NCBI GenBank assembly: GCA_009889515.1
Contig: WUQR01000068.1
Location: forward strand, 1-64,000
Source of the DNA: Nitrososphaerota archaeon
GTDB lineage: Archaea; Thermoproteota; Nitrososphaeria_A; Caldarchaeales; Calditenuaceae
DNA length: 64,000 nt
Reading direction: 5' to 3'
Shown here in pieces: positions 32,814-56,514 of this stretch. The position numbers and the translations under genes were made by a program. Under the pieces are notes generated by a model that saw only the letters and a list, made by a program, of their open reading frames with translations, ran no database searches and was not told the origin of the DNA. Every line of letters starts with the position of its first letter. Position 1 is the stretch's first letter.

Positions 32814-32922
32814 TGGGGCCGGTGGGATTTGAACCCACGACCTCCTTCCCCAACTTGGGGGTGAAGCCCCAAGTTGACCGGGCCCGAGCCGGGCATCTTA
32901 GACCATGCTCGACCACGGCCCC
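32814..32922 (-). tRNA. tRNA-Pro(CGG) with probable 33-nt intron outside the anticodon loop
   Basis: Acceptor GGGGCCG (32922-32916) pairs with CGGCCCC; the T-arm is GTGGG TTCAAAT CCCAC. The anticodon loop is CTCGGGC, giving CGG (32886-32884) with G37, typical of tRNA-Pro; stem CCCGG/CCGGT has four clear pairs. Between the stem and the variable loop AGGTC lie 33 extra nt (32844-32876) forming a 10-bp hairpin CAACTTGGGG/CCCCAAGTTG. Removing them leaves 76 nt, so I read them as a noncanonical intron at the anticodon stem/variable loop junction. Confidence 0.8.
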
Positions 32923-38860: not shown

Positions 38861-38967
38861 TGGGGCCGGTGGGACTTGAACCCACGGCTTCCGGGTTTCT
38901 TCTGTGCCAGCTACGCTTGTTGATGGGATCTGGAGCCCGGCGCCCTACCTTGCTAGGCCACGGCCCC
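38861..38967 (-). tRNA. tRNA-Trp(CCA) with 33-nt canonical intron
   Basis: Acceptor GGGGCCG pairs with CGGCCCC plus discriminator A; D-arm GCCT/GGGC; anticodon stem CCGGG/CCCGG with loop CTCCAGA, giving anticodon CCA. The T-arm is GTGGG TTCAAGT CCCAC. An intron of about 33 nt (38897-38929) interrupts the loop after position 37, the usual archaeal site. The mature tRNA would be 74 nt. Confidence 0.95.
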
Positions 38968-54109: not shown

Positions 54110-54191
54110 GGGCCCGCCTTTGCGGAATTTGAATGGTATGTAGCGGATACTCGGCTATTGGCTTAAATATGATACGCGCTCCAGTAGAATC

Positions 54192-55694
54192 GTGCCAAGT
54201 GCCAGTAGAGTCTCCCTCATCGGGGCTTTAGGAGTGGTGCTGCTAGCTGTTGCGATGGCCCTACCCGCAGCCTATGCGCAGGCCTACAACATCACGGTCG
54301 AGGATGCTAGGATAAAGGTCAGGCTCACATACCCTCCCGAAGTCGAGGTAGGCTCCTGCTTCAACGTCCAGATAGAGGTTACAGCCCTCTCGGCACTAGA
54401 CAGTCTCAACCTCACCCTCAAGATAATCTACTTCTACGACAGTCAGAGCCAAACCCTCTACAATCAAGTATTGATAAACGATGTGGACGTGTCGGCCCCC
54501 AGTGTAGTATTATTCAAGAACATAGGCCTCTGCATACCAACACAAGTTGCTGCAGATCCTTGGCTCGAGGCGAGGGTAATCTTCAACTATTTCACAGACA
54601 GCACCCCCGTAGAGATAACGAACACATTCTACATGAGCACCGTGAGGCAGATATCCTATGAGCGGCTATCCGCTAGGCTCGCAGACGCGAACCAAGAAAT
54701 CTCGAGGCTGAGGTCCGAGGTAGCGGCCCTGAAGGCTGAACTTGAGGAGGCTGCCGCGAGGGAAGAAGCCCTGAAGGCGAAGATCGATGAGCTGACCCAA
54801 GTCAAGGAGGATTTGGAGAAGAGGCTGGCCGAGCTTCAAACCCTTAAGAGCGAGTTGGAGAAACAGCTGTCAGACCTCACCAGCAGGTATAGCCAGCTGC
54901 TGGTGGACAACTCCGCGCTACAGGAGCGATACAAGACCCTGATGGACAACTACGCAATCCTCCAGAAGAGCTATGAGGAGTTAAGAAAGGACTATGACGC
55001 GGTCTCAAGAGACCTATCATCGACCAGAAGCCTCTACAGCGAGCTACAGTCTAGGCACGAGTCCTTGAGAGCATCATACGAGGATTCTGTCAAGACTTTG
55101 GGCCAGTTGGAGGGGTCCTTGAAGGAGCTTGAGAGGCAGCGCGAGGTTCTCGAGGCGATGCTGGCCCAGGCCACCGGGGAGAGCGGCTTCTTCAAAAACG
55201 TCGCTGTTGGACAGGGTGTCGGGCTGGTCGCCCTAGGTGGCGGCGTCGCAGCCTGGATGTTGATGAGGAGGAGGGGTAAGGCCGCAGCGGTTGGGGGCCA
55301 AACAGCTCCCACGCCCCCTCCACCTTCGCCACTGCCCACAAACCCAACCACCAACCAGCCACCCTCAACAGCAGCCAACCCCGAACAGCTAAGCGCGGCG
55401 GAGCGCGCAGCCAAGGAGCCAGCACACGTAGAAGAGGCGCCGGAGAGCGAAGTGGTCCAGAAGGTAATCTCAGGCAGAAGGGTCACTATCCCCTCACGTC
55501 TGGCCGAGAGGCTAGGCATAGGTATAGGGGACAGCATAAAGATAGGGCTGCTAGGCGACAGGCTGATTCTCGTCCCGATAAGGGCTAATGGAGCAGCTTA
55601 TCCGCAGCCTCCTGAGCCTGCCTCACAACCTCGACACTCTTCAGAAACTCGCGCCGCTCAGAATCATCAAGATCGAGCTCGATTATTCGCTTAA
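54192..55694 (+). CDS. predicted transmembrane coiled-coil protein with cytoplasmic AbrB domain
   Basis: A 500-residue protein with five parts: signal peptide (1-30, ending AAYAQA), a beta-sandwich extracellular domain (35-150), a long coiled coil (about 155-325, many leucines with LEKRLAEL and LEKQLSDL), one membrane helix (about 338-357, followed by RRRGK on the inside), a Pro-rich linker (370-415), and a SpoVT/AbrB domain (about 421-463, ISGRRVTIPSRLAERLGIGIGDSIKI). The last 36 residues are encoded antisense to the malate dehydrogenase gene. It could carry an outside signal to DNA directly. The arrangement is read from sequence; function is inference. Confidence 0.82.
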   Translation: MPSASRVSLIGALGVVLLAVAMALPAAYAQAYNITVEDARIKVRLTYPPEVEVGSCFNVQIEVTALSALDSLNLTLKIIYFYDSQSQTLYNQVLINDVDVSAPSVVLFKNIGLCIPTQVAADPWLEARVIFNYFTDSTPVEITNTFYMSTVRQISYERLSARLADANQEISRLRSEVAALKAELEEAAAREEALKAKIDELTQVKEDLEKRLAELQTLKSELEKQLSDLTSRYSQLLVDNSALQERYKTLMDNYAILQKSYEELRKDYDAVSRDLSSTRSLYSELQSRHESLRASYEDSVKTLGQLEGSLKELERQREVLEAMLAQATGESGFFKNVAVGQGVGLVALGGGVAAWMLMRRRGKAAAVGGQTAPTPPPPSPLPTNPTTNQPPSTAANPEQLSAAERAAKEPAHVEEAPESEVVQKVISGRRVTIPSRLAERLGIGIGDSIKIGLLGDRLILVPIRANGAAYPQPPEPASQPRHSSETRAAQNHQDRARLFA

Positions 55695-56514
55695 CACCGC
55701 TGAGCCCCAAAACAGCCGGCACCACGCTGCATACACCATCCACGCCATACTCGCCCCTCAGGTAGACGCTGGAGGGAATGACTGCGTCAGTATCCTTTAG
55801 GATAGCCTCGGCCATAAGCATCACGCCAGCCCCCGGGGCATGGCTTGCCGACCACCCCTTAAGGGATATCACCTCGGCACCAGCCTTCCTAGTCCTCTCG
55901 ACCAGTTCACCGATCTTCTCCCGCGACAGGAGTGAGGTGAGCGGCTTACCGAGTACATGAGTTAGGCGCGGTAGGAGGACCATATTGTCGCCGTGCTCTC
56001 CTATTATGGGGCCGACGATAGATGAGCGCGAGACCCCCAGCTCCTTGGCAACCAAGTATCTGAACCTGCCAAAGTCCAGCAGGCCGCTAAACCCTATAAC
56101 CCTCTCCCTCCCAAACCCGGTCTTCCTCAAGGCAACATAGGTCATTACGTCGAGGGGATTTGTTACTACTATGACCTTGGAGTTTGGCGCATATTCCCTA
56201 ACCTTCTCTGAGACGTCCGCGACTATGGCAGTGTTCTTCTGGAGGAGGTCCATCCTCGTCATGTCGGCCTTCCGAACTACTCCAGCCGTAATAACCACCA
56301 AATCCGCTCCCGCGATATCCTTATAGTCATTCGACCCAGTTATCTCCACGTCTATCCCAAGTATCGAGGCCATGTGAGAGAGGTCCAGCGCCTCACCCTG
56401 CGGCAGCCCCTGCACAATATCCACTAGGACAAGATCTCCCAAACCCTTCAAAGCAATATGTATCGCCGCTGAAACTCCAACCCTTCCACACCCGATAACA
56501 CCTATCAGAGGCAC
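55585..56514 (-). CDS. mdh: malate dehydrogenase (LDH/MDH superfamily)
   Basis: A 309-residue NAD(P)-dependent enzyme: GVIGCGRVGVSAAIH dinucleotide fold, VVRKADMTRMDLL with the Arg of malate-specific enzymes, VTNPLDVMTY, and the catalytic His in IGEHGDNMV. It interconverts malate and oxaloacetate. Its 3' end overlaps the convergent AbrB-protein gene by 110 bp. Confidence 0.92.
   Translation of the reverse strand: MPLIGVIGCGRVGVSAAIHIALKGLGDLVLVDIVQGLPQGEALDLSHMASILGIDVEITGSNDYKDIAGADLVVITAGVVRKADMTRMDLLQKNTAIVADVSEKVREYAPNSKVIVVTNPLDVMTYVALRKTGFGRERVIGFSGLLDFGRFRYLVAKELGVSRSSIVGPIIGEHGDNMVLLPRLTHVLGKPLTSLLSREKIGELVERTRKAGAEVISLKGWSASHAPGAGVMLMAEAILKDTDAVIPSSVYLRGEYGVDGVCSVVPAVLGLSGVKRIIELDLDDSERREFLKSVEVVRQAQEAADKLLH

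Follow-up and report, generated by a model that had tools for sequence, protein, structure and literature searches.

The gene and its product

The window, that is, the whole 64,000-nucleotide stretch of DNA that was analysed, carries at positions 54192-55694 of the forward strand one ORF with a GTG start codon that encodes a protein of 500 amino acids. A TATA-like box of its own precedes the gene, in the 82-bp gap that follows a dehydrogenase gene. The first-pass annotation had described a beta domain, a coil, a membrane helix, a Pro-rich tether and an AbrB domain in that order; all five are present, and the limits of the ORF were exact. The features of the locus are as follows.

54139..54145, + strand: TGTAGCG box, 16 bp before the TATA-like box; candidate site for AbrB binding (conserved in congeners, recurrent across the order)
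54162..54169, + strand: TATA-like promoter box CTTAAATA (conserved in an alignment of six congeners)
54192..54278, + strand: predicted signal peptide, residues ~1-29 (N-terminal hydrophobic helix in all relatives)
54279..54650, + strand: predicted extracytoplasmic beta-sandwich domain, residues 30-153 (AF2 pLDDT 87.5, nine strands)
54657..55181, + strand: coiled-coil rod, residues 156-330, with an unbroken heptad register (AF2 helix 156-327; lengths in 30 relatives)
55200..55265, + strand: predicted Gly-rich membrane segment, residues ~337-358 (uncharged and conserved in position across all relatives; lowest pN/pS)
55266..55274, + strand: RRR, putative positive-inside signal, residues 359-361 (basic cluster kept in most relatives)
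55275..55451, + strand: Pro-rich flexible tether, residues 362-420 (pLDDT <50; pN/pS 0.61)
55452..55589, + strand: AbrB/MazE DNA-binding domain, residues 421-466, with the loop SGRRVTIP (PF04014 above cut-off; pN/pS 0.14)
55590..55694, + strand: C-terminal extension, probable run-on (overlaps the malate dehydrogenase gene at 55585-56514, - strand)

The C-terminal AbrB/MazE domain was recognized by PF04014 over residues 430-466 (1.6e-7, 31.6 bits against a cut-off of 24.7), and its loop, S427-G428-R429-R430-x-T432-I433-P434, is invariant across 22 aligned AbrB-carrying homologues. The last ~32 residues of the protein overlap the convergent malate dehydrogenase gene, with 110 bp shared (55585-55694), and the residues past the AbrB domain are probably run-on sequence. 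Their pN/pS of 2.1 with a very low pS is the pattern expected where constraint acts on the opposite strand.

In the beta domain, C56 and C114 are invariant in 30 relatives. No convincing sequence homologue of this domain was found in Pfam or PDB, and its fold matches to arrestin, adaptin-appendage and CARDB domains were set aside as generic beta sandwiches (TM-score ~0.5 or less). AF2 modelled residues 156-327 as a single unbroken helix with pLDDT mostly above 90, and matches of the coil to SMC, Rad50, EzrA, crescentin and similar proteins were dismissed as matches of composition. For residues 329-427 the pLDDT was below 50, so that the membrane segment is not confidently modelled; in this species the segment has a modest hydropathy, with a 19-residue Kyte-Doolittle maximum of ~1.5 (1.2 to 2.4 in relatives). 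The signal peptide and the RRR cluster point to an N-out/C-in topology. The stalk protein would lie in the membrane, possibly as a dimer.

Selection on the parts of the protein

Within the genus, the lowest pN/pS values belong to the membrane segment (0.11) and the AbrB domain (0.14); those of the beta domain (0.25) and the coil (0.24) are intermediate, and the linker/tether has the highest (0.61). The AbrB domain and the membrane segment are therefore under strong purifying selection.

The distance from Y156 to E330 is 174, 181 or 188 residues in 30 of 30 relatives, always 6 modulo 7, and this rule holds among proteins as low as 27% identical. At least six changes of coil length were placed on the tree, every one by whole heptads. 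Furthermore, the hydrophobic register runs continuously from end to end in every relative except L010 and L013, in which a few windows shift. These observations suggest that the phase of the rod, and not just its length, is under selection. The core of the coil has Leu at 77% of d positions and mostly Tyr, Leu or Ile at position a. With ~25 uninterrupted heptads and 0.15 nm per residue, the rod would measure ~26 nm, which suits either a rigid spacer or a phase-coupled transmitter.

Distribution and history of the family

Matches were found in 46 of the 61 genomes searched. Five congeners have full-length matches with the same architecture at 67-88% identity, and the architecture recurs across the order at 27-33%; because of this recurrence the ORF is not a chance one. 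The family belongs to the Caldarchaeales (Aigarchaeota), which are hot-spring archaea: among the congeners is a Candidatus Calditenuaceae record, and wider relatives come from Calditenuis, Pelearchaeum and Wolframiiraptor. A profile of the beta domain detected the ectodomain in 38 of 44 Caldarchaeales genomes, with weaker matches in other families of the phylum. The AbrB tail was present in 31 of the 38 ectodomain-bearing Caldarchaeales, and PF04014 matched 24 of 30 relatives.

The seven Caldarchaeales species without AbrB (four of genus g7 and three of genus g6) have stalks that end in a short Pro-rich or charged tail. Outer relatives in the phylum, among those read, have the signal, the beta domain and the coil without AbrB, and most of these also have the membrane helix and a poly-Pro tail. 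Thus, the expectation that homologues would share the whole architecture was borne out in congeners and across the order, but not in the seven species or the outer relatives read. On the tree, AbrB-less species are nested within AbrB-bearing clades at two separate places, suggesting that an older surface-stalk family probably gained AbrB once and lost it at least twice. Since AbrB-less relatives occur both within and outside the order, AbrB is an accessory to a stalk whose function is older and independent of it. The AbrB-less stalks L062-L064, L068-L070 and L076, from several lineages, end in a predicted cytoplasmic poly-Pro tail (LPPPPPPPP).

The AbrB-tail profile separated the family by a clear gap, with family members at E 3e-14 or better. 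Fifteen matches outside the family, picked mostly among the longer ORFs, were considered as other membrane AbrB proteins and rejected: those 15 proved on reading to be PhoU-type fusions or soluble AbrB, and none had a comparable stalk and membrane helix. The idea that AbrB had been split off as a separate gene where the stalk lacks it was also rejected: five of the seven species gave no AbrB-tail match, and G027 and G029 gave weak matches (E 5.6e-6 or worse) that are not of the family type. A conserved operon partner was likewise discarded, as synteny holds within the family only, and no linked toxin gene was seen in the neighbourhoods examined. In a different part of the host genome (G000:C146, L081:1028-2657), a small AbrB-like ORF at 1028-1225 overlaps the start of a DNA cytosine methyltransferase-like ORF.

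A promoter motif that accompanies the AbrB domain

Upstream of the TATA-like box, TGTAGCG is common to the six congeners, one of which has TGTATCG, and Wolframiiraptor relatives with quite different neighbouring genes have the same box or its complement. Two genera first drew attention to the motif, and the test then covered the remaining ones. Within 150 bp upstream of the gene, exact TGTAGCG occurred 0.58 times per AbrB+ species vs 0.02 in shuffled sequences. With up to one mismatch it was found in 30 of 31 AbrB+ species (1.94 vs 0.37 in shuffles), whereas six AbrB- species remained at chance level (0.33 vs 0.35); the seventh, G014, has no TGTAGC upstream. GTAGCG was present in 23 of 31 AbrB+ species and in none of the seven AbrB- species (Fisher p = 0.0005, an optimistic value as related species are treated as independent). 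Furthermore, in an unbiased count TGTAGCG ranked first among all 7-mers, and its halves as 6-mers were common to 8 of 11 genera, against a null maximum of 4-6. The box is repeated at ~10-bp spacing in several genera, about one per helical turn, and some genera have an extra copy directly downstream of the TATA box. The motif is weak or absent in the AbrB-carrying genus g2 (L010, L013), which counts against a regulatory role.

Genus g6 provides a natural loss series: L027 and L030 keep AbrB and the boxes, and L022, L024 and L026 have lost both with intact flanks. In the AbrB- species the boxes are gone and the TATA region is kept. Compared with G028, these species differ at 11-16 of 38 site-block positions vs 3-6 of 59 flank positions. 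Between the two AbrB+ species, 6 of 38 and 9 of 59 positions differ, respectively. In two separate genera, then, AbrB and the boxes have disappeared together. Such joint occurrence of motif and domain argues, indirectly, for real DNA binding, with AbrB itself as the candidate binder of TGTAGCG.

Across the 64-kb window, four of the five exact TGTAGCG boxes lie inside ORFs; the box at 54139 is the sole one outside. A global regulon of tandem boxes was considered and rejected, as TGTAGC pairs across 44 genomes were no commoner than a reversed control. Of 30 tandem TGTAGC loci that we read, 26 were inside ORFs, and all four outside precede a stalk-AbrB gene.

Comparison with known systems

Transmembrane transcription regulators have been described before and are common in archaea (PMC10269533). 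ToxR, CadC and the archaeal ArnR/ArnR1 resemble the present protein in joining a DNA-binding domain and a membrane span in one protein with no kinase (PMC10269533, PMC6396743). Here, the PF04014 domain, the conserved membrane segment and the RRR cluster are predicted to lie in one polypeptide. Unlike these regulators, the present protein has AbrB instead of the usual helix-turn-helix, and its DNA-binding domain is C-terminal and on the inner side, preceded by a signal peptide and an extracellular rod. AbrB is not mentioned in the main text of the survey of such regulators (PMC10269533).

The outer part recalls SlaB, the S-layer anchor of Sulfolobales, with which it shares a signal peptide, a beta-sandwich head, a long coiled-coil stalk and a C-terminal membrane helix (PMC10903991, PMC6911244). 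In contrast to SlaB, it has one beta domain rather than two or three, a longer coil (174-188 vs about 132 residues of helix), and an inner Pro-rich tail with AbrB, where the passages on SlaB describe no inner domain. There is also no adjacent slaA-like canopy gene: the neighbours in the window are enzyme genes with their own strands and promoters, and synteny differs elsewhere. The SlaB model NF040788 scored 17.7 bits, far short of its cut-off of 700, with a match in the coil alone.

The AbrB part falls with the swapped-hairpin AbrB/MazE/Sso7c4 proteins (PF04014; PMC5222340) by its domain match over the cut-off, its GR-V-T-I-P loop and the following helix. However, the members known so far are either small soluble dimers or fusions, for example of the PhoU type, the SGRR-x-TIP loop signature is specific to the stalk-AbrB family, and the helix arginine of Sso7c4 (R22) and AbrB (R23) is replaced by Ala.

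The first-pass annotation had stated that no described family has this order of parts. In the open-access subset of the literature that was searched, we found no published description of a stalk, a membrane helix and AbrB combined, which agrees with the statement; the statement does not extend to transmembrane regulators, which had already been described (PMC10269533). The concept of a membrane regulator is thus not new, and what is unusual is that the inner, C-terminal end of an S-layer-like stalk carries AbrB.

A proposed autoregulatory stalk and its alternatives

On balance, we lean towards autoregulation: a membrane-anchored one-component regulator of unusual topology, an S-layer-like stalk with AbrB at its C-terminus, would act on its own gene via the TGTAGCG boxes. 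The signal peptide would take the beta domain outside the cell, and the continuous coiled-coil rod would hold it off the membrane. One helix would cross the membrane, and the flexible Pro-rich tether would present the AbrB domain to the chromosome, where it would bind the boxes that lie immediately before the TATA box of the gene encoding it, a position that would allow either activation or repression. From the membrane, the stalk protein would thereby set how much of itself is made, working as transmembrane one-component transcription regulators do. The earlier idea that an outside domain is joined to an inside DNA-binding domain with no kinase is supported, as are the parts and their order. 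Two further observations count against regulation: two of the DNA-contacting arginines of Bacillus subtilis AbrB, R8 and R23, are not conserved (Q423 and A438 here, in an ungapped alignment), and seven species do without AbrB.

The data speak for autoregulation rather than for a response to any known stimulus; an outside signal, if there is one, seems likeliest to be the state or load of the surface layer. We advance only tentatively, and with appreciable doubt, the fuller scheme in which the stalk would sense the state of that layer through its rigid, phase-locked rod and directly set its own transcription through AbrB, a one-gene feedback loop from membrane to promoter that would have arisen when a surface stalk captured AbrB at the base of the Caldarchaeales.

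The protein could instead be mainly a structural surface stalk, a SlaB-like S-layer anchor or an adhesin, with an inner AbrB domain that ties the chromosome to the envelope and does not regulate transcription. The outer part follows the SlaB plan, from the signal through beta sandwich and coiled coil to the C-terminal membrane helix (PMC10903991); this plan, the older and wider AbrB-less form and the lack of a conserved neighbouring operon would all fit. Yet a general tether would require no boxes specific to its gene around the TATA box, and no decay of those boxes once AbrB is lost, and we regard this explanation as rather unlikely.

Domains of the AbrB/MazE kind also bind proteins, as MazE does. 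Such binding, together with the loss of R8 and R23, would be compatible with another regulator occupying the TGTAGCG boxes while the AbrB domain serves in protein interaction, in oligomerisation or as partner of a toxin-like protein. The joint loss of boxes and AbrB in two genera and the neighbourhoods examined, where no toxin gene is linked, speak against this alternative, which we consider unlikely. Least probable, and by our estimate very improbable, is release of the inner AbrB part as a soluble regulator by a protease; the single Gly-rich membrane helix and the long unstructured tether would suit cleavage, but neither a cleavage motif nor a linked protease was seen, and release alone leaves unexplained why the membrane segment with RRR is the most constrained region.

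If the autoregulatory reading is true, a surface stalk, rather than a sensor/HTH protein, would here be the scaffold of a membrane-anchored regulator. An envelope protein would then have a simple means of setting its own level with no signalling cascade in between, in archaea of which most are uncultured. TGTAGCG is a concrete candidate DNA site for this AbrB family, for which none is described in the literature searched, and the natural loss series, in which AbrB and the sites disappear together, makes its function directly testable.

Other features of the window

Rfam identified two more tRNA genes in the window, at 38861-38967 and at 32814-32922 (- strand). At 107-109 bp they are longer than usual and probably contain introns, and ARAGORN missed both with bacterial settings.
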